A stretch of 25,710 bases of DNA from a virus. Position numbers and translations under genes: made by a program. Location: positions 518 to 26,227 of the IMG/VR virus record IMGVR_UViG_3300030106_001960. One strand, 5' to 3'. Positions 11,747-20,608 of the stretch are shown one piece after another; position 1 is the first letter of the stretch, and each line of letters opens with the position of its first letter. The notes beneath the pieces are model-generated. The model did not search any database, had not been told where the DNA came from, and saw nothing but the letters and a program-made list of their open reading frames with translations.

Positions 11747-11910
11747 TATTGCATAAAGAAGTTAAATGCTTCTACCTCATCTTTTAAATCTTGTTGATAC
11801 GTAGTATTAAGTTTTTCAATAACACCATCTAAATCTCTTGTTTGTGCTTCAGCCACTGTGTAATCATATTCTTTAGCTGGTCTTGTTAATACTTGTGTTA
11901 TTTTTGCCAT
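11746..11910 (-). CDS. Small hypothetical protein (54 aa)
   Basis: A 54-residue acidic, helical protein beginning MAKITQVLTRPAKEYDY and ending EAFNFFMQ. It exactly bridges two confirmed genes: its ATG at 11910 overlaps the stop of the 728-codon gene, and its TAA overlaps the ATG of the 113-codon gene, both as TAATG. That tight coupling is the main evidence that it is real. I recognise no family. Heptad-like hydrophobic spacing in the second half (VIEKLNTTY) suggests a coiled coil and oligomer formation. A small chaperone or tail assembly role is possible but unsupported. Confidence 0.74.
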   Translation of the reverse strand: MAKITQVLTRPAKEYDYTVAEAQTRDLDGVIEKLNTTYQQDLKDEVEAFNFFMQ

Positions 11911-14096
11911 TATCTTCTTCCATCTGGTTGTATGTCTAATCTAAAAGTCCCTAGCTTCCAACTTTGATCAACCGCAGTGTTTTCTATTTTTAACGCTATT
12001 GCTCTAGCCCTAGCTCTAGTATCAACTTTTTTAGTGCTAGTTGTAACATCAAAAGGACCTAGTGAAGAACTAGCCTGAGTGTCATTAGGAAAATTTCTTA
12101 ATTCTAAAGTTACTCTTGTTGTTCCTGTTTGAGATATAAAATCAGGTATAAATCTTCTTATCTTCATTAAAAACTCACCATCTCCTCTAAGGGTTGCAAT
12201 ACCTGTTTGTTGACCGGTTGGTGCTCTTTGTGCCGTAATGTCAAAATCTCCAGATGATATGTTTGATAACACAGCTGTTATAGTACCATTTTTATTTTGA
12301 TCTGTTCCTGTTTCATGTTCATAGTATGCAGTTCTACCCTCTGTGTTGCCCACAACATCAAAAGATGTGTCTGTACTTGCATCATATTCTAATGCATGTG
12401 GTAATCCAAAGACAGCTGAGTCTTTCCACATTGTTCTAGATAAAGTTCCAACTGTCCATACAGGTCTTTGTGGTGACGAATCAAAATAGTTATAAGTAAC
12501 TTGTTTATTAATTACATCTGATGTAGCAGATGGATAAAACCAAATTACTTCACCAAACAAATTATTTAAACCTGCAGACACCATTTGATTACCAGAAGCT
12601 AAATTTATATCATCATAAACATGATCTTCTACTAAACATGGTAATGATTCTAATTTACCACCATATCTAAAAAAACCATTCTCTGACATCCAATACGCTG
12701 CACCATCAACTTCAACACAAGCATTCTGTCCAACCAATCCGCAGTTAGTTCCAACTTGTGAAAAAGCAAATGTAAATGGTGATCCTACAAAACGTTGAGT
12801 AAATAATGCAGTATCGGTCCAAATGTATAAAGCATCTCTACCTCTAATGGCTCCTCTAATTTGTGAGCCATCGGCTAGTCTTTGTGTACCAGCTGTATTT
12901 GTTGCTGTTGGTGCGTATGTGTTTATATCTTCTTGATCAGAAAATCTTATAAACATATCATCTTGTGTAGAAGTATCACCAATAGTTGTTTCTGTTCCAT
13001 AAAAAACTAAGTGTCTATCAGGTGTTGATACAACCATGTGTCTTGATGCAGTTGGTGCACCACTAATAATTGTGGCTCTTGTTTCTGTTGCATTTCCTAA
13101 ACTAGAGTCCCATTCAAAACATGCGCTGTCGTGAATTAAACAAATTGCTTTATCACCAAAATTATCAATAGACCACATACCTGGGTCCAATGCTAAACCT
13201 TCGGCTGTTTGTTGGTTCCATGCTGCGTAATCACTGGCATCTGTAACAGTTACACCATCACTGTGCGAAGCTGCAGTTGTTCCTCTAGCTCCTCTTGTTA
13301 CACCTGTTAAAGTGTTACTGCTGATACCTGTATATTGAATCATTTCTGTTCCTATTAAAACAAAATTAGTTCCTGTATTTGGAAACTGAGATGCGTTTGT
13401 TAAAACTATTGTAGTGGTAGATGCATTAATTGCTCCATTTAAAGTTGTTGTTACAGCAGATGTATCTTTACCTCCCCATGATCCTAGTCCCCAACCAAAA
13501 CCTTTTTCTTGAACTGCAGTGCCTACAGGATAATAATGTTGAACTCTAATACCACCAGACGTTGTTGCTCCAGATCCTGATTCGTTTGATGGCATTGTAA
13601 TAGTTAAAGTTGTTCCAGTAGGAACAGAAGTTACCATAAATTTTTTGTCATCAAAATCTGATGATCCAAAATTAGAACCTGTTATAGTTGTAAAGTTGTC
13701 TAATAAAATTATATCATTAGGCGATATACCATGAGCTGTAGGAAAAGTTATTGTTACAATAGGTGATCCATTGGTCGTGGTAAAAGCGCTTGTTAAAGTA
13801 GTAGTCGTTTTTATTGGGTGTATGTCATAGAATACGTTACCAGAAAAAGCATATAATATTCTATTAGTGCCAATAATTGCATATCTTCTACCAGCACTAT
13901 TTACGTAATGATGTAATCCTCTTCCTGCACCAGTTAATTCATTAGAACTTAAAGGTCCTAGTTGATTCCAACCACCTATTTTTTCAGGTATCCCATATCT
14001 AAATCTTACATTATCGCAATCTACCCACTGGCCCTCTGCTCCAGTTTCTGAAATTTGTTTATTGATACCTGGCTGAAATCCTATTTTTTGTAGCAT
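11910..14096 (-). CDS. Large tail protein, probable nozzle / tail tubular protein B-like
   Basis: A 728-residue structural protein. The N-terminus (21-43) reads GQWVDCDNVRFRYGIPEKI, a signature shared by phage proteins often annotated as tail nozzle or packaged-DNA stabilisation proteins (P22 gp10 / T7 gp12 functional class). A small domain lies around 97-185, and an inserted beta domain at about 217-288 carries FPNTGTNFVLIGTEMIQYTG and GVTRGARGTTAASH, a pattern common in marine phage tail proteins. The remainder is Ser/Thr-rich beta, with a repeated tyrosine/tryptophan propeller-like texture. A role in closing the tail tube is inferred from signature and size. It is preceded by a 49-base gap (14097-14145) with AAGG as ribosome site and followed by a TAATG junction. 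Confidence 0.82.
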   Translation of the reverse strand: MLQKIGFQPGINKQISETGAEGQWVDCDNVRFRYGIPEKIGGWNQLGPLSSNELTGAGRGLHHYVNSAGRRYAIIGTNRILYAFSGNVFYDIHPIKTTTTLTSAFTTTNGSPIVTITFPTAHGISPNDIILLDNFTTITGSNFGSSDFDDKKFMVTSVPTGTTLTITMPSNESGSGATTSGGIRVQHYYPVGTAVQEKGFGWGLGSWGGKDTSAVTTTLNGAINASTTTIVLTNASQFPNTGTNFVLIGTEMIQYTGISSNTLTGVTRGARGTTAASHSDGVTVTDASDYAAWNQQTAEGLALDPGMWSIDNFGDKAICLIHDSACFEWDSSLGNATETRATIISGAPTASRHMVVSTPDRHLVFYGTETTIGDTSTQDDMFIRFSDQEDINTYAPTATNTAGTQRLADGSQIRGAIRGRDALYIWTDTALFTQRFVGSPFTFAFSQVGTNCGLVGQNACVEVDGAAYWMSENGFFRYGGKLESLPCLVEDHVYDDINLASGNQMVSAGLNNLFGEVIWFYPSATSDVINKQVTYNYFDSSPQRPVWTVGTLSRTMWKDSAVFGLPHALEYDASTDTSFDVVGNTEGRTAYYEHETGTDQNKNGTITAVLSNISSGDFDITAQRAPTGQQTGIATLRGDGEFLMKIRRFIPDFISQTGTTRVTLELRNFPNDTQASSSLGPFDVTTSTKKVDTRARARAIALKIENTAVDQSWKLGTFRLDIQPDGRR

Positions 14097-14145: not shown

Positions 14146-14622
14146 CTAAATATTTATGTCTAGCACTAGAGTTATGCGGTTTTCCTTGCTAGAATAGACC
14201 GGTGTCCTGTGTTTGAGTCTTGAATCAAATATCAATATACTATTTTGTTTAGCCTTTTTTAATCCGTAAAGTTCAAACTCTGTACCACTATTCACTTTTT
14301 CTGTTGTTTGTAAATAATAAACTACAGAATAATTACACTCATCATGGGAGTGAAATTTAAATTTTTTACCGTTTGTTTTGGTTAACCATGCATTTGATAT
14401 CTTTAAATCTTTACCTAGTTTTTGTTCTGTTAACTTTAATAGTTTATCTAAAGCAAATTTAAAGTGAGGTATTTTTCTAACATCAGGAGACCAATAATCA
14501 TCTGCCTCATTAACAGGAGCACCATGTTTTTTAGCAACTTCTTTAGTTACTATAACTCTATTAGAACACTCCAATAAATATTTTTGTTCTTTCTCTGTAA
14601 ATATATTATCAATGCTTTGCAT
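14146..14622 (-). CDS. Putative 2OG-Fe(II) oxygenase-like protein A
   Basis: A 158-residue protein, the last of a cassette of five related-fold genes. Visible motif residues are HSHD at 91-94, a conserved strand SVVYYLQT, then Phe132-Asp-Ser, His138 and Arg149 (ENRITLVLDI). That spacing suits the iron and 2OG binding sites of the double-stranded beta-helix fold, but HSH rather than HxD makes this one of the weaker members; it resembles the HSH arrangement of the gene at 1566. Its start overlaps the previous gene by 14 bases (14609-14622). A substrate cannot be assigned; protein or glycan modification is expected from the cassette. Confidence 0.75.
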   Translation of the reverse strand: MQSIDNIFTEKEQKYLLECSNRVIVTKEVAKKHGAPVNEADDYWSPDVRKIPHFKFALDKLLKLTEQKLGKDLKISNAWLTKTNGKKFKFHSHDECNYSVVYYLQTTEKVNSGTEFELYGLKKAKQNSILIFDSRLKHRTPVYSSKENRITLVLDINI

Positions 14623-15268
14623 GTGTTCTAAACCAAGAAGGTAGTCCTAAATGAGGTCTTCCATCGTATGGAACAGCTTTGGGATTTCTTATATCATTAT
14701 AATGTAAAAAAACTTGAACACATTCTTTTCCTGTAAAAGGTTCTCTCCAATGTTCCAAATCCATTCCTCTATATATCAACATGTCTCCAGGATTTAAAAT
14801 AACTTTAAGTCCTGTTGTGTTAGCAGGCACATAACAAGAATCTGTTTGTTTTCCTAAAGAAGAATTTGGTTCTATGTATATAGGCCAAGAGTCTCCACCT
14901 AAATTTAAAGTAGTTGAGATCTCACAAGAATTTCTATCTTTGTGTCTTTTTAATTCATTTCCTGTTTTATAGATTCGTGCATAAGAATAATTAGGTGTTA
15001 AAGTAAGTCCTGTTTTTTCTTGCATAAGTTGTTGTAAGTTTACTAACAACATGTCCATCATAATATCTCCATAACAAGAAAAAGCTCCAGTAACTTGAGG
15101 ATCAAACACAGTTCCAAATTCACTTTGATAACGAGATATAAAAGTATGTTTTAACATTGTTTCGTATGTTTGATTTTTGTTTCTAAAATATTCTGCAAAA
15201 AGATGACAGTAATCTTCAGGCAATACTTTTCTTAAAACGTCATATTTATTTTTTTCAAAATTAAGCAT
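14609..15268 (-). CDS. Putative 2OG-Fe(II) oxygenase B (prolyl 4-hydroxylase-like)
   Basis: A 219-residue protein with readable dioxygenase motifs: KRHKD giving His109-x-Asp111, the strand EISTTLNLGG, a Pro-Gly-Asp-Met strand (160-163), then His173 (EHWRE) and Lys181. A lysine in the 2OG-binding position is normal for prolyl 4-hydroxylase-like members, where arginine is used by other subfamilies. This makes it a credible active enzyme. It uses Fe(II), oxygen and 2-oxoglutarate to hydroxylate an unknown substrate. It overlaps the sulfotransferase stop by 8 bases and the next gene by 14. It belongs to the cassette that follows the Gly/Pro-rich fibre gene. Confidence 0.85.
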   Translation of the reverse strand: MLNFEKNKYDVLRKVLPEDYCHLFAEYFRNKNQTYETMLKHTFISRYQSEFGTVFDPQVTGAFSCYGDIMMDMLLVNLQQLMQEKTGLTLTPNYSYARIYKTGNELKRHKDRNSCEISTTLNLGGDSWPIYIEPNSSLGKQTDSCYVPANTTGLKVILNPGDMLIYRGMDLEHWREPFTGKECVQVFLHYNDIRNPKAVPYDGRPHLGLPSWFRTHAKH

Positions 15269-16043
15269 ATATATTAAAGTCTTTAAATTTATTAATTATT
15301 TCTTTATTTAAATAATCCTCTACATTTATATCTTGTTTTTTAATTCCGTCTGTTCTGATTGAATGAAGATCAAAATCTAAAACATTGTCATCATAACTTA
15401 TATTATTAAATGTAAACTGTTTTATATTGTCATAATCGTGTTCAAATTTTGGTAAATTAAAATGTTCATATATTTTTTGTATGGAAGATTTTGTGTCGCT
15501 AACTAAATTATCGTAATCTATCATTAAATGTTTTTCTTTACGTTTAACAATATTTCTAGCCGATCTAATATCTTGAGTTAGTTTACCATGATTTTCATCA
15601 AATAAATTTCTAGAAATACTTACAAAATCATTCGCCTCTAAATTTCTTTTAGATCTTACAAAAGAAGCAACTATTTCTAATATAGGTCTGTTAAGAATTA
15701 AAAAATTAGGTTTTGGATCAAAGTATTTTTTTAACACCATAAGATTAGCTGGTGTTCCCCAACAACTTCTTTCAAATATAACCTCCGCATCTATATGATT
15801 ATAAAAATTTTTAAAAATATTTATAATAACATTGTCTAAACTTTTATGATCTGGAAAGTTTTCAAACACTTTGTTTTCTTTAAGACAAAAAAGATTCCAT
15901 GTTATTGTTGATAAAATACTATTAGCACTTACTTTAACTTTAGGATTTTGATTTAATATAGAACTTAACAGCGTGTTACCTGCTCTTGGCAAACCTGCTA
16001 GATAAAATATTTTTTTTGTTTTATGAGTATGTAATAATTGCAT
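15261..16043 (-). CDS. Sulfotransferase (PAPS-dependent)
   Basis: A 260-residue protein with the hallmarks of the sulfotransferase P-loop family (PF00685/PF13469-like). Near the N-terminus, FYLAGLPRAGNTLLSSIL (13-30) is the 5'-phosphosulfate-binding loop, with Arg20 where the canonical motif often has Lys. The 3'-phosphate-binding elements are Arg119 (LNRP) and Ser127 (ASFVRSKRN). IDYDNLVSD near 175-183 matches the usual Y-D/E-L-V strand. It would transfer a sulfuryl group from PAPS to a hydroxyl or amine of an unknown acceptor. It lies between two oxygenase genes, starts as a TAATG overlap at 16043, and is probably cotranscribed with them. PAPS must come from host metabolism; no PAPS synthase is here. 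Confidence 0.9.
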   Translation of the reverse strand: MQLLHTHKTKKIFYLAGLPRAGNTLLSSILNQNPKVKVSANSILSTITWNLFCLKENKVFENFPDHKSLDNVIINIFKNFYNHIDAEVIFERSCWGTPANLMVLKKYFDPKPNFLILNRPILEIVASFVRSKRNLEANDFVSISRNLFDENHGKLTQDIRSARNIVKRKEKHLMIDYDNLVSDTKSSIQKIYEHFNLPKFEHDYDNIKQFTFNNISYDDNVLDFDLHSIRTDGIKKQDINVEDYLNKEIINKFKDFNIYA

Positions 16044-16564
16044 TAATCTTCCTTTGTTAAAAAATAAGTTAGCGTTAATCTTCCATCTTCTATATTATTA
16101 CCATGATTATTAATAGCCATATGAAAAGTTCCATTTGAAAAAAAGACAGCTCTGTTTTGAACATATCTAGCTATACCTGTTTCTTCATATTTATCTTCTC
16201 CTATTTTTCTATAAAAAGCTGTGCCAGATTTTAAATTAGTTGGTGATAAATATATTAAAATTGTATCTCCCCAGTCTCTATGTATCCAATCCTCAGCTGC
16301 GTGTTTAGATAATCTTAATTGAGCGTGTGCTCTAATCCTGTCATAGTTTTTTAAATCTATGTCAAATTTGTTTTTTATATAACCCAAGACTGAATAAAAT
16401 AAGAAAGGATATTTTCTATCTAAAAAATCTGTTCTAACACCAGGATACTCGTTTCTTTCTTTTGTTAATTTTTCAAAATCATCAGGATTATAATATTGTA
16501 AAGTTTTACAAAGCCTATAATATTCTTGGTTAAAATCTAAAAAATTATCTATAATTTTAATCAT
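16043..16564 (-). CDS. Putative 2OG-Fe(II) oxygenase C
   Basis: A 173-residue protein of the cassette. Readable Fe/2OG elements are WIHRD (His95-x-Asp97), followed by a strand ILIYLSPTN, then SGTAFYRK, and NGTFHMAINN with His148, and GRLTLTYFL with Arg162. That is a complete iron facial triad plus 2OG arginine, so catalytic activity is likely. The family is the prolyl/aspartyl beta-hydroxylase-type 2OG dioxygenase superfamily; the subfamily is not resolved. Its start overlaps the stop of the preceding gene as ATGA (16561-16564) and its TAA overlaps the sulfotransferase start as TAATG. The substrate is unknown. Confidence 0.86.
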   Translation of the reverse strand: MIKIIDNFLDFNQEYYRLCKTLQYYNPDDFEKLTKERNEYPGVRTDFLDRKYPFLFYSVLGYIKNKFDIDLKNYDRIRAHAQLRLSKHAAEDWIHRDWGDTILIYLSPTNLKSGTAFYRKIGEDKYEETGIARYVQNRAVFFSNGTFHMAINNHGNNIEDGRLTLTYFLTKED

Positions 16565-17124
16565 TTTTGTAAATACCCATACCAGCCAGTTACAATGTAT
16601 TTAGTTTCATTTGGTGATGGATATCCTTTGTGTGTATGTGTCCAAGCAACAGGCCACATTAAAGTTAATCCTTTCTCAGGTTTTATTTTTAAGTCTTGAT
16701 AAAAAAACCCTGTTTCTCCTCCATTGTCTACATCATTTAAATAAGTCATAAAAACTAAATGTCTATTTATAGATAATGGTGATCCTTCATTTTCTGCGTG
16801 CCATATATGATATCCTTCAGTAGGTTCATACTTTTGTATTTTAGATCCTATCCAACCCCAAGGCTGTTGTTGAATATCTGAATAAATATATTTATTTTTA
16901 TACGCTTCACAAACTTTATTTAATTCTTTTATATATTTTTCAAAAATATATCCGTCTTCAGGTCTAAATGTTATTTCAGTGCTTTGTTTAAAAGTTGGAT
17001 TTTGTGTAGCCTCAGCACCAAAAGTTCCTTTAAATTTATTAGAACTTTTTTCATAATAATTAATTAATTCATCGCATATGTTTTTATCAATAAATTTTTT
17101 ATAAATAAAATTGTCTATTTCCAT
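16561..17124 (-). CDS. Putative 2OG-Fe(II) oxygenase D (prolyl 4-hydroxylase-like, HxE)
   Basis: I choose the ATG at 17124 (187 residues) over an upstream in-frame ATG at 17142 because AGGA sits 5 bases before it; overlap with the preceding gene is then 10 bases. Motifs are KYEPTEGYHIWHAE with His109-x-Glu111, the strand HLVFMTYLND, GGETGFF, then WTHTHKG (His163/His165) and Lys175 (KYIVTGWYGYL). The lysine and the YLND strand look like prolyl 4-hydroxylases. Glu in the usual HxD position is a variant that could still coordinate iron but might alter activity. It sits within the cassette and is coupled to the next gene by ATGA. Confidence 0.85.
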   Translation of the reverse strand: MEIDNFIYKKFIDKNICDELINYYEKSSNKFKGTFGAEATQNPTFKQSTEITFRPEDGYIFEKYIKELNKVCEAYKNKYIYSDIQQQPWGWIGSKIQKYEPTEGYHIWHAENEGSPLSINRHLVFMTYLNDVDNGGETGFFYQDLKIKPEKGLTLMWPVAWTHTHKGYPSPNETKYIVTGWYGYLQK

Positions 17125-17741
17125 GGTTGTCCTAAGTGCCAAGTAACTAAAGAATATCTAGTTCCTTCTGTAACTGGCTTTACTTGATGCCAAACAAAAG
17201 AAGGAAAAACAATTATAGATCCTTTTAATTGTGCTTCAGTCGCTGTTATAACTTCATCATCTTCTACATTGTTTCTTAAATTAAATTGTAGTTCTCCACC
17301 TTTATATTCGTGAGGGTGGTTTAATAGAATAGAACAAGATAACTTTCTTATTTTACCTACAAAGTTTACAGGACTTTCTTTGTTATAAGGAGCAGGATTA
17401 GCGTCTTGATGCCAGCCATAAAATTGTCCAGGTTTATATTCTGTAAACTGTGATGTTTCTGTCCAATCCCATTGAAAATTCCAACCAGCATTTTCATTAG
17501 CTTCATCTATAAAAGGATGTATAATTCTATAAATCCAATTATAGTTTAACCACAATACTTTAGATTGTCTTTTTTTATTTAAATTTTGATAATCTTTTGA
17601 TGTTAGTTTTTCTTTCCTATCTCCCATGTTACCAATATACGCTGTATTTCTTTGCTGAACTAACCCTCTTCTTAAAACTAAATCGCAAAATCTTTCAGGT
17701 AAAACACCATTAAAGTACCAATATTGATATTTTAAATTCAT
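17115..17741 (-). CDS. Putative 2OG-Fe(II) oxygenase E (PKHD-type)
   Basis: A 208-residue protein and the first of the modification cassette in transcription order. It has the cleanest motif set: FTEYKPGQFYGWHQD (His111-x-Asp113), the strand KLSCSILLN, a GGELQF turn, FPSFVWHQ (His185) and GTRYSLVTWHLGQPW (Arg195), matching PKHD-type hydroxylases that act on amino-acid side chains in proteins. It is therefore a strong active-enzyme candidate. It follows the Gly/Pro-rich fibre gene after 45 bases, a gap holding a possible promoter, and overlaps the next oxygenase. Substrate assignment would be speculation. Confidence 0.92.
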   Translation of the reverse strand: MNLKYQYWYFNGVLPERFCDLVLRRGLVQQRNTAYIGNMGDRKEKLTSKDYQNLNKKRQSKVLWLNYNWIYRIIHPFIDEANENAGWNFQWDWTETSQFTEYKPGQFYGWHQDANPAPYNKESPVNFVGKIRKLSCSILLNHPHEYKGGELQFNLRNNVEDDEVITATEAQLKGSIIVFPSFVWHQVKPVTEGTRYSLVTWHLGQPWK

Positions 17742-17786: not shown

Positions 17787-18773
17787 TTAGCTTGGCCAGT
17801 TACCGTCAATAATTGCAGTGTATTGAGCTTTTAAAGTCCACATTCCAGAAGAACTTGAAGGACCTGCACCTGCTTCAGAAACTACAACTACACCATCTCC
17901 TCCAGCTCCACCCGGATTTGAATATTGAGTTCCAGCTCCGCCGCCAGTTCCATCAACGCCATCTACACCTGGATTGTTTCCAGTTTTTCCACCGCCACCT
18001 TTTCCTCCAACTTGAGGATTTGGTCCGGTTCCGCCGCCACCACCGCCAACCCAGTAGCCGCCGTCATCTTCTAATTTTCCTATATCTGATGGAAATAAAT
18101 TTGTAACTTCTAAACCGTCTCCACCTTGAGATCCTATGTCTTCTCCTCCGACACCTGCTTGACTGTAGCCTCCGCCACCGCCACCACCGGCTGAAGGGTC
18201 AGGGTTTCCTGTTCCTCCTGGATTTCCTTCAGGTGGATTGTATCCTCCTGCATTACCACTTCCTGGTCCATTGTTAGGTGTAGGTGTGTTTTGGAATCCT
18301 CTTCCTCCTCCACCACCAGATCCCCCTGGTTCTCCTGGACCTCTAGGGTTTGTATTTTGTCCTGGCGGGTAAGGTCTATTTCCACCTCTTCCACCTCCAG
18401 TAGCAGCAATTGGAGTTGCAGATCCAAAAGTAGATCCACCTCCACTTGAATTTGTATATGGGTATGGTCCATCTCCTGCTCCACCAGATCCAACACTTAC
18501 TGGAACAGAACTTGCTGGTAGAGGGTGAGATGCAAAATATCTAACACCGCCTGCTCCGCCACCACCACTTTTGGTAGCTGCTCCTCCGCCTCCAGCGACT
18601 ACTAATAACTTACATGTTGTTGCAGTTCTATTAAAAGTTCCTGGTGAATTAAAAGTTGTTACTAAATCATTAATGACAGGATCATTATCTGGTCCTACTA
18701 GTCCACCTTGATTATCAAGATTGTTTTGACCTGTTTTATTAAAACCTGATACTAAAAAATTTCTGTTACTCAT
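17787..18773 (-). CDS. Gly/Pro-rich tail-fibre-like protein
   Basis: A 328-residue protein. After an N-terminal anchor-like region (1-55) comes a Gly-rich domain of the type found in phage fibres and adhesins (KLLVVAGGGG, GGGAGGVRY, PVSVGSGGAG, then ATGGGRGG), resembling glycine-rich domain PF21722, where runs of Gly form packed polyglycine helices. A Pro/Gly-rich central part (132-195) contains X-Pro-Gly tripeptides; I count eight in the protein. It ends with a short ordered peptide, MWTLKAQYTAI...WPS (311-328), after a Ser/Gly linker. It is likely a receptor-binding or fibre component exposed on the virion. A good ribosome site (AAGGAG) lies in the end of the upstream gene. High GC of the gene follows from Gly/Pro codons and need not mean transfer. 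Confidence 0.88.
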   Translation of the reverse strand: MSNRNFLVSGFNKTGQNNLDNQGGLVGPDNDPVINDLVTTFNSPGTFNRTATTCKLLVVAGGGGAATKSGGGGAGGVRYFASHPLPASSVPVSVGSGGAGDGPYPYTNSSGGGSTFGSATPIAATGGGRGGNRPYPPGQNTNPRGPGEPGGSGGGGGRGFQNTPTPNNGPGSGNAGGYNPPEGNPGGTGNPDPSAGGGGGGGYSQAGVGGEDIGSQGGDGLEVTNLFPSDIGKLEDDGGYWVGGGGGGTGPNPQVGGKGGGGKTGNNPGVDGVDGTGGGAGTQYSNPGGAGGDGVVVVSEAGAGPSSSSGMWTLKAQYTAIIDGNWPS

Positions 18774-18776
18774 ATT

Positions 18777-19295
18777 TTATTCTGGTTCTCCTTCCCAAAC
18801 TATCCAAGTATTAGTTGAATTATCATAATACTTCTTTACATCTACTCCGTCAATAATTCTGTGACCTTGATAACGATTTCTTTCTGGAAAAAATCCCCAT
18901 ATTACACGATCTGCAGGAATACTATCTTCTGGATAAGGTAAACTTCTACCTTGATCATCGACTATTGGTTCAGGTACGTTTGGAATCCAAAAATTATTTT
19001 CATCTAAATGAAATAAGTTTGCATATCCTTCTGGAAGTTCACCAAGAAATTTATCTGCAGTAGAGTGACCCATCCAATCTTCAGTGTAATATTTTGCGCC
19101 TGCTCCTGCGTATCTACCTCTTTGAGAAGAATCTTTCCAAGTTTGTTTCCAAGAAACACCATCGGTAGTATGAGTTAAATTAGATTCACACCAAGCTTCA
19201 TTAGTTGCATGATCGCCTGGAACTACATTATCATCGTTTACAATTTGAACTTGTATTACGATATTTTCAGAGTCTAGTTCAGCAAAATAAGCCAT
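18777..19295 (-). CDS. Conserved marine-phage structural protein, tail-associated (172 aa)
   Basis: A 172-residue protein. The N-terminus reads MAYFAELDSENIVIQVQIV, and the body contains AWCESNL, SWKQTWKD and RGRYAGAGAKYY, a sequence style I associate with proteins seen near tail-fibre genes of marine cyanophages and pelagiphages; no biochemical function is known to me. It is mixed alpha/beta with many aromatic residues and lacks a signal peptide. It lies between a small beta-rich protein and the Gly/Pro-rich fibre in the tail-fibre set, so a tail-surface role is likely. The assigned start is 18 bases after the upstream stop. Confidence 0.84.
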   Translation of the reverse strand: MAYFAELDSENIVIQVQIVNDDNVVPGDHATNEAWCESNLTHTTDGVSWKQTWKDSSQRGRYAGAGAKYYTEDWMGHSTADKFLGELPEGYANLFHLDENNFWIPNVPEPIVDDQGRSLPYPEDSIPADRVIWGFFPERNRYQGHRIIDGVDVKKYYDNSTNTWIVWEGEPE

Positions 19296-19313
19296 AATCT
19301 CTATGACCTCTCA

Positions 19314-19679
19314 TTAACTTAACTCTTCGTAATTTATTGTAATCACTAAGTCTGATGCTGCGCTAGCTCCACCTTCGATATTGTCTCCCTCTTCTAAATA
19401 AAGAGCAGAGTTTTTATCAATTACTACTAGTGAAGAATCTGCTGGCACGTTGATTGTGCTAGCAAGAGCTATAGGTGAACCACCACTTTTAGTTATAAAT
19501 ACTGAAGTAGTTGCAGCGTTTGTTCCATCGATATTGGCTACAAGAATATTATTTATTTTAAATACTTTTCCTGAAGATGAACCATTTGCAAGAAGTTCAG
19601 TTGTTAAAGTTGTAGTCAATGCTGCTTGAGCAGACTTTGCAGTTATTGTTGATATGTTAGCTAGATTTGGTGCTGCCAT
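19314..19679 (-). CDS. Small beta-rich virion protein (121 aa)
   Basis: A 121-residue Ser/Thr/Ala-rich protein, likely a small beta-sandwich. Its strands read KVFKINNILVANID, SVFITKSGG and LVITINYEEL, with an LYLEEGDNIEGG loop near the C-terminus. The fold plan recurs in the 113-residue protein at 11405-11746. Proteins of this type are frequent in the tail regions of marine phages, where they are presumed virion surface proteins; experimental roles are not known to me. A strong ribosome site, AAGGAG (19693-19688), is 8 bases before the ATG. It belongs to the fibre-gene group and probably works as a spacer, decoration or attachment subunit. Confidence 0.84.
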   Translation of the reverse strand: MAAPNLANISTITAKSAQAALTTTLTTELLANGSSSGKVFKINNILVANIDGTNAATTSVFITKSGGSPIALASTINVPADSSLVVIDKNSALYLEEGDNIEGGASAASDLVITINYEELS

Positions 19680-19702: not shown

Positions 19703-20608
19703 TTACCCGAAAATGAAAGCCATTGCAATAGCTTTTCCTACGGTTGATATTTGTTGACCACCAGCTTGAACTTGACCAGAGCCATTTGGTGCTAAATTTA
19801 TATTACCATTTGCACCATCCGTAATAGTAATACTTCCTGAGTTAGTCCCAGAATTAGTGTCTAAAACAAGGTCATGTGCACCACTTGATGTTAATGTAGC
19901 TGCAGCTGCACCTGTACCGATAACAGTCTCTCCAGATCCTTTTGGAACAAGGACCATGTTAATATTAGTATCTCCGCCTGTAGCTGAAATTGAAGGTGAG
20001 TTACCTGTTGCAGCATTTGTAATATCAAATTGGTTTACTGCAGATCCAGTTGTTTGAAATATTATTTGTTCATTACCATTTTCATCATTGATTCCATGTG
20101 CGTCATCAAATGCAATATTAAAATCGTTTGTATCTAAATCACCACCAAGTTGTGGAGAAGTGTCATCTACAACATCACCACCAAACTCAACAGTAACTAT
20201 GTTTGGATTTGTTCCATCATCTGCTTTTGCATAAGCGATAACAGTTTTACCATTTGCAACAGTTGCACTTGTTCCTGAACCACTAACATATTTAAATACT
20301 ACGTTTTGAGATCCAGAAGTTCCATTTTTTAAAAGATACATTTGTTGAACGTCTAAAGGTATTGTAACGTTTCTTGATGCTGTAAGTGTACCAGTAAATT
20401 CTATTACTCTGTGTGCAAGAGTTGCACCAGTTGATCCATCTGAAACAGATAGAGTTGTGTCTCCTGAATCAGATACAGCTTGTGAAGTAGTACCACCAGC
20501 TATTTGTTCAATAATTTCTAAATTAGTATTAGTTTTAGTTCCCCATGTACCAGCGTTTTCACCGGTTGCTTGTTTCTCTATTCCTAGAGGTGTATATGTT
20601 GAAGCCAT
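19703..20608 (-). CDS. Tail fibre / virion fibre protein with GTWGTKTN N-terminus
   Basis: A 301-residue Ser/Thr/Gly/Asn-rich protein. N-terminal ENAGTWGTKTNTNLEII (18-34) is typical of phage fibre attachment domains, and the middle carries DDTSPQLGGDLDTN, a sequence seen in many marine phage fibres, followed by beta-helical repeats such as TITDGANGNINLAPNGSG and a hydrophobic IAMAFIFG end. It is likely a trimeric fibre shaft. The ribosome site ATAGGAGATAAA is shared nearly identically with the gene at 22106, and its AGGAG overlaps the stop TAG of the upstream gene. Location beside the repeat protein and the 121-residue protein supports a tail-fibre assembly. Confidence 0.9.
   Translation of the reverse strand: MASTYTPLGIEKQATGENAGTWGTKTNTNLEIIEQIAGGTTSQAVSDSGDTTLSVSDGSTGATLAHRVIEFTGTLTASRNVTIPLDVQQMYLLKNGTSGSQNVVFKYVSGSGTSATVANGKTVIAYAKADDGTNPNIVTVEFGGDVVDDTSPQLGGDLDTNDFNIAFDDAHGINDENGNEQIIFQTTGSAVNQFDITNAATGNSPSISATGGDTNINMVLVPKGSGETVIGTGAAAATLTSSGAHDLVLDTNSGTNSGSITITDGANGNINLAPNGSGQVQAGGQQISTVGKAIAMAFIFG

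Follow-up and report, generated by a model that had tools for sequence, protein, structure and literature searches.

An oxygenase and sulfotransferase gene cassette beside fibre-like genes in a pelagiphage lineage

We analyzed a 25,710-nucleotide stretch (the window, 25.7 kb) of the 27,358-base IMG/VR virus record IMGVR_UViG_3300030106_001960, covering positions 518 to 26,227 of that record, and focused on a cassette of six small genes at 14146–17741. These genes overlap on the − strand in the order A, B, C, ST, D, E, with ST between C and D. A preliminary description, made from the letters alone, had read them as five 2-oxoglutarate (2OG)/Fe(II) oxygenase-like genes and an inserted sulfotransferase gene of the type that uses 3′-phosphoadenosine 5′-phosphosulfate (PAPS). 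All six open reading frames are indeed present on the − strand, and Pfam, motif and fold evidence agrees with that reading. The overlaps A/B, B/C, C/ST, ST/D and D/E measure 28, 4, 1, 8 and 14 bp; B likely starts at the ATG at 17124, which reduces the first overlap to 10 bp and brings all five into the 1–14 bases originally given. G+C content is 35% in the window versus 28% in the cassette.

The window reads as one structural region carried by the late (−) strand; at its left end, a helicase gene and a sixth oxygenase gene lie on the + strand. This sixth 2OG-oxygenase-like gene (1566–2129, +; phrog_81, 2e-22) lies directly downstream of the helicase gene and outside the slot described below. 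The cassette had been placed among tail-fibre genes, which is correct for its upstream side, where a fibre-like gene is found; its downstream neighbor (11910–14096) is instead stabilization/nozzle-like, and relatives of this 728-amino-acid protein carry the label ‘stabilization protein’ in other phages. Promoter and terminator scans of the window gave site counts no higher than in shuffles, with no internal site standing out, and we therefore make no claim about transcript boundaries.

The identities of A–E as oxygenase enzymes and of ST as a sulfotransferase are well supported. Pfam matches of A, B, C, ST and E all exceeded the family cut-offs. The 2-His-1-carboxylate motif is carried by A, B, C and D: HxD/E was present in all 108 aligned A/B-type sequences, H95, D97, H148 and R162 were invariant in 11/11 C-type sequences, and H109, D111 and H173 were invariant in 46 aligned D sequences, with the metal motif HxD/E...H in 72/72. 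E lacks the motif, scoring above the PF13759 cut-off although the carboxylate of its metal triad is replaced by His. The resulting HxH was found in 7/7 E sequences, and two larger families of slot genes share it (80/81 and 15/15). Regarding the basic residue that follows the distal His and binds the 2OG carboxylate, R162 is invariant in C, and the residues of A, B and E were read by eye. D does not conserve the usual position, which is K in the window, whereas its R175 and Q185 are invariant.

D yielded no Pfam match. Its AlphaFold2 model (mean predicted local distance difference test score, pLDDT, 95.1) forms a double-stranded beta-helix, and its best match in the PDB is a prolyl-4-hydroxylase (P4H; 4j25, E 1e-9), with other 2OG oxygenases also among the 50 matches listed by the fold search. 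We rejected the alternative that D is a ferrochelatase, as the label of phrog_2954 would have it, given the oxygenase fold, the missing Pfam match and the lack of any ferrochelatase among those 50 matches. A homologue of D is gp67 of phage HTVC023P, annotated as a putative ferrochelatase. Because D folds as an oxygenase, the published oxygenase/ferrochelatase pairing (PMC9599517) is better read as oxygenase/oxygenase. Between them, B, C, D and E match PHROG families labeled ‘ferrochelatase’ (phrog_2954), ‘DNA endonuclease V’ (phrog_274), ‘DNA endonuclease’ (phrog_2297) and ‘minor coat protein’ (phrog_1644). Since oxygenase-motif proteins match them, these four labels may be misassigned.

ST retains the 5′-phosphosulfate-binding loop PRxGxT and the 3′-phosphate site R119/S127. 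G17, P19, R20, G22, T24, R119 and S127 were invariant in 8 sequences, and R20, G22 and S127 in 49. Its AlphaFold2 model (pLDDT 92.5) has a sulfotransferase fold. The best 18 Foldseek matches in the PDB were sulfotransferases, the top 13 being tyrosylprotein sulfotransferases (TPSTs), followed by CurM-type and heparan 3-O enzymes. TPST1/2 are the nearest solved relatives by sequence profile (7.9e-10) and by fold (8.5e-8) and share the PAPS-binding signatures. The TM-score, however, is only ~0.5, and the Glu after the PAPS loop, the catalytic residue of TPSTs, aligns with Asn in ST and with Asp or His in some relatives; the Arg that follows this Glu is not kept either. We therefore do not claim TPST activity and rejected ST as a tyrosylprotein sulfotransferase.

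Table 1 Cassette genes and neighboring genes of the window, with the evidence for each assignment
Feature	Position	Strand	Evidence
A: 2OG/Fe(II) oxygenase, PKHD/P4H-like	17115..17741	−	PF13640 1.3e-15; HQD...H...R; PKHD-type hydroxylase 3dkq 3e-5
B: 2OG/Fe(II) oxygenase, prolyl-4-hydroxylase-like	16561..17142	−	PF13640 1.4e-9; HAE...H...K; P4H 5hv0 1e-4
C: DUF6445 oxygenase-like protein	16043..16564	−	PF20043 5e-7; invariant HxD...H...R
ST: PAPS-type sulfotransferase, TPST-like fold	15261..16043	−	Sulfotransfer_3 (PF13469) 4e-10; Sulfotransfer_1 4e-7; AlphaFold2; Foldseek
D: 2OG/Fe(II) oxygenase, HKD...H	14609..15268	−	phrog_2954 1e-48; invariant residues; AlphaFold2 fold
E: 2OG-FeII_Oxy_5-type protein, HxH...H...R instead of HxD	14146..14622	−	PF13759 9.6e-8
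Glycine-rich fibre-like virion protein, directly upstream of cassette, candidate substrate	17787..18773	−	PF21722 2e-9; phrog_2295
phrog_7759 protein, recurring partner of the glycine-rich gene, in co-transferred block	18777..19295	−	78% identity to L006
121-amino-acid structural-region gene, upstream edge of exchanged block	19314..19679	−	76% identity to L006, next gene 53%
Nozzle/stabilization-type virion structural protein, 728 amino acids, downstream border of slot	11910..14096	−	phrog_3287 1.4e-95

We retrieved 80 related IMG/VR loci (given here by L numbers) with the 728-amino-acid protein as query, in a search whose E-values apply only to candidate stretches. In these relatives, a slot between fibre-like genes and the nozzle/stabilization gene is filled by a varying run of small genes. 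Most slot gene families have the oxygenase motif, and the representatives tested match PF13759, PF13640 or DUF6445. Profile counts over the 80 loci gave 335 oxygenase genes in the slot versus 3 elsewhere on the same contigs; since these profiles derive from slot genes, the count may miss distant oxygenases outside the slot. The 54 complete slots hold a mean of 4.6 oxygenase genes, and 2/54 hold none. The two are L058 and L061, which carry other proteins, one of them DUF7483 (1e-119). The cassette is thus part of a larger pattern in relatives than the window alone could reveal.

Some slots additionally encode a tryptophan halogenase (PF04820, 4e-110), a NodU-like carbamoyltransferase (PF16861, 8e-58), a sulfotransferase, a methyltransferase or a cupin/JmjC protein. 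In L110, L121, L124 and L127, each island combines two sulfotransferases, a carbamoyltransferase, a tryptophan halogenase and several oxygenases. L002, L005 and L006 repeat the order A-B-C-ST-D-E (two further genes sit inside it in L006), and L181 repeats A-B-C-ST-D. Given this recurrence and the 335 versus 3 enrichment, the cassette is not a chance assembly. A scan with the ST profile, independent of the slot, added 78 new loci, 71 of which have oxygenases and 73 a slot marker. Many loci, including those in the 80-locus samples, are close relatives, so the locus counts are not counts of independent events. The cultured relatives are the Pelagibacter phages HTVC023P and HTVC027P, which suggest a SAR11-type host for the window phage; an uncultured relative is phage 023Pt_psg01. 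The lineage is that of the most abundant SAR11 phages known.

A link between the enzymes and the fibre genes emerged from comparison with L006. Proteins from the gene at 19314 through E are 76–93% identical between this locus and the window, versus 50–53% in the flanks. A single high-identity block between divergent flanks indicates that fibre and enzyme genes moved together in L006. Joint occurrence of cassette and fibre in related genomes, set beforehand as a test of the preliminary description, was found, in L006 as one block. Identity between L181 and the window is 64–74% for the cassette but 44% for the nozzle gene. Among 50 slots, the gene content of the island correlated with the glycine-rich protein at r 0.45 (partial Mantel r 0.46/0.29 after controlling for the nozzle gene), versus r 0.17 for the nozzle protein and r 0.17 for the upstream gene at 19703. 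The cassette is genuinely linked to fibre genes; that enzyme and fibre sequences match one to one goes beyond the evidence. Kelch-like repeat proteins of ~600 amino acids occupy the position of the glycine-rich fibre beside some islands, at L075:2234–4102 and L191:350–2152.

A second linkage concerns the supply of PAPS. In 22 ST loci, a 129-amino-acid P-loop protein (KIN) is encoded, usually directly downstream of ST, and is usually followed by a HIGH-motif nucleotidyltransferase of 114–118 amino acids (NT). The pair occurred in these 22 ST loci versus 0/76 ST-less loci of the lineage (Fisher’s test, 1.3e-7). KIN, present in the relatives only, is a P-loop kinase whose full-span PDB matches are mainly adenosine 5′-phosphosulfate (APS) kinases (2yvu, 3cr7, 1d6j and PAPSS1; residues 3–80, 1e-5 to 6e-4); for PF01583, the L098 copy scores above the cut-off (22.3 versus 21.1) and the L102 and L113 copies just below it. 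NT is a HIGH-type nucleotidyltransferase (PF01467) with a weak ATP-sulfurylase match, 0.0076 in one copy. A scan with NT alone returned 79 loci, with KIN in 76 and ST in 65. Among the 64 NT loci with >2 kb upstream, 58 have ST and 6 lack it. Three of these six (L177, L220 and L241) carry Sulfotransfer_2 (PF03567) above its cut-off, and the other three encode a probable sulfotransferase, with sub-threshold matches in L178 and a similar-looking protein in L195 and L221.

Because the constant partner of KIN and NT is a sulfotransferase activity and not one protein family, we interpret the two genes as probably encoding a minimal PAPS synthase. The linkage itself is observed, and it argues that NT would perform the ATP-sulfurylase step. 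The likeness of NT to nicotinamide mononucleotide (NMN) adenylyltransferases prompted us to consider a nicotinamide riboside kinase/NMN adenylyltransferase pair serving NAD salvage, which is disfavored because nearly every adequately flanked NT locus has a sulfotransferase, of three different kinds. L181, a rearranged relative of the window, carries A-B-C-ST-D, one further oxygenase and then the KIN/NT pair. For host PAPS capacity, we turned to the literature: the cultured SAR11 strain HTCC1062 lacks cysDN and sat and has cysC, cysQ and aprA (PMC5069961), which makes phage help with PAPS plausible. Outside the pelagiphage lineage, KIN and NT are fused in a ‘kinase’ gene (phrog_10255) of the unrelated Stenotrophomonas phage Bhz60, with a Sulfotransfer_4 gene two genes upstream (L171; 5992–6732 and 4969–5547). 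A fused KIN/NT gene is likewise present in DLP_6 (L172, 5599–6330), where no sulfotransferase was recognized in the one neighbor tested.

Taking the enzyme families, the slot, the linkage and the co-transfer as observed, we propose that the cassette supplies the enzymes of an exchangeable module, the other half of which is the fibre genes, and that these enzymes tailor a virion adhesin by hydroxylation and sulfation. We give this reading, including its substrate, order of steps and benefit, a probability of about 0.5. Late in infection, the upstream fibre-like proteins (17787–19679) would be made together with the oxygenases and the sulfotransferase. Judging from fold and motif, A–E would hydroxylate side chains using O2, Fe(II) and 2-oxoglutarate, and ST would sulfate a hydroxyl or phenol with PAPS as the donor. 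Where host PAPS is too low, related phages would bring the KIN and NT supply in the same island. The likeliest substrate would be the neighboring virion adhesin, whose binding surface could be altered or protected with its sequence unchanged. Hydroxylases, sulfotransferases, carbamoyltransferases and tryptophan halogenases in one slot would suit a peptide whose side chains include hydroxyl and aromatic ones. A block that moves with its fibre genes and freely exchanges enzymes would let lineages change their surface chemistry by recombination. The PAPS-module linkage in relatives makes the multi-step hydroxylation and sulfation suggested at the outset more likely; the target, be it fibre, host surface or another molecule, is still an assignment that we infer.

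Several observations weigh against this proposal. The correlation between enzyme set and glycine-rich fibre is a signal between fibre classes that disappears inside the main one (r ~0). Fine-scale co-variation, absent there, was accordingly dropped, and the class-level signal and the L006 block were kept. Some islands have kelch-like repeat proteins (recognized by eye) or other genes as neighbors in place of a glycine-rich fibre. The cassette had also been described as part of a late operon. The window’s genes do lie on the late-gene strand, but the oxygenases occupy the other strand in HTVC027P (L087, 10295–11956; gp72–74), L045, L054 and L062, and L150, L160, L196 and L201 have a portion of their island, ST and the KIN/NT pair included, opposite to the late genes, as if a block had been inverted. 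Infection transcriptomes of HTVC027P are available (PMC12753301). In addition, the KIN/NT pair is absent from the window’s record, itself a 27-kb fragment only, NT resembles NMN adenylyltransferases more than ATP sulfurylase, and the catalytic Glu of TPSTs is not conserved in ST. Finally, the substrate, product and activity of the cassette enzymes are ones that we infer.

Among other explanations, it is possible, though unlikely, that the enzymes act late in infection on host surface glycans or lipids, such as lipopolysaccharide or exopolysaccharide, and thereby block superinfection or free progeny from receptors. The carbamoyltransferase of sister islands is NodU-like (5e-34; PHROG label ‘Nol-like’) and ST has a weak NoeE match, and relatives of the NodU/NoeE type decorate Nod-factor sugars; moreover, a related ST in cyanophage S-SRM01 sits among glycosyltransferase and epimerase genes. 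The window cassette, however, has no glycosyltransferase and its block travels with fibre genes, several oxygenases resemble protein prolyl-hydroxylase or PKHD enzymes, and tryptophan halogenases require an aromatic substrate.

We consider it rather improbable that the slot is a recombination hot spot where unrelated accessory genes gather for separate metabolic ends, such as iron/2OG or auxiliary metabolism. Gene turnover between relatives is high, and the published view is one of auxiliary metabolic genes (PMC9599517, PMC12753301). A passive site, however, should gather all gene types, and most of the classifiable cargo consists of oxygenases or group-transfer enzymes. Only 3/338 oxygenase genes lie outside the slot, and the kinase/nucleotidyltransferase/sulfotransferase linkage is specific.

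It is quite doubtful that the enzymes produce or modify a diffusible small molecule or peptide such as a toxin or signal. Oxygenases, halogenases, carbamoyltransferases and sulfotransferases form a usual tailoring set for natural products, and ST also resembles the CurM sulfotransferase, yet no scaffold-building enzyme or precursor peptide was recognized in any slot, and the genes are positioned among virion genes. Hypermodification of phage DNA or RNA bases, by TET-like hydroxylation followed by carbamoylation or sulfation, is very improbable. In its favor, the D profile matched only Naegleria Tet-like dioxygenases among PDB sequences (E 0.018), cytosine-derived bases of phage DNA and RNA are substrates of a carbamoyltransferase (PMC8670742), and HTVC023P-type phages have DNA hypermodification genes (PMC9599517). 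Against it, D is closest in predicted fold to prolyl-4-hydroxylase, none of the 50 matches listed is a Tet enzyme, base methyltransferases and hydroxymethylases were not recognized in the slots, the late-strand site lies among virion genes, and a halogenase does not fit.

If the islands do tailor adhesins, swapping enzymes would offer phages a route to receptor diversity or to evasion of resistance, a question directly testable on cultured isolates. The analysis also corrects the published reading of oxygenases with ferrochelatase partners and points to a probable source of co-substrate for the sulfotransferases of phages, the function of which ‘remains unclear’ (PMC10580990). In the open-licence literature, we found no earlier report of the tailoring-island view, the corrected identity of D or the sulfotransferase/PAPS linkage, and earlier reports are possible.

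Clustering of oxygenases in the HTVC023P-type pelagiphage lineage has already been reported (PMC9599517; HTVC023P gp65–67 and gp71, HTVC027P gp73). These clusters belong to the same lineage and the same slot beside the nozzle gene, comprise several non-orthologous oxygenases, and include family D as the ‘ferrochelatase’ neighbor. That study describes oxygenases that are nearby, not adjacent, with ferrochelatase partners, and makes no mention of a sulfotransferase, halogenase or carbamoyltransferase; the oxygenase fold of D and the sulfotransferase/PAPS linkage are what we add. A, B and D are also similar by sequence or fold to prolyl-4-hydroxylase and PKHD hydroxylases, including the P4H of Chlorella virus PBCV-1 (cited in PMC9301287), a precedent for virus-encoded hydroxylation of a viral protein. 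Unlike those enzymes, the cassette, characterized here from sequence and fold, is a run of divergent enzymes in one operon, and its neighbor is glycine-rich, not collagen-repeat. The same enzyme families also include marine phage sulfotransferases and flavin-dependent halogenases (S-SRM01, S-SKS1 and OM43 phages; PMC10580990) and a marine viral halogenase (Gkotsi 2019, cited in PMC10452541). The marine phage sulfotransferases and halogenases were reported without a linked role, whereas here they form part of an island linked to fibre genes, in which a probable PAPS supply is often present as well.

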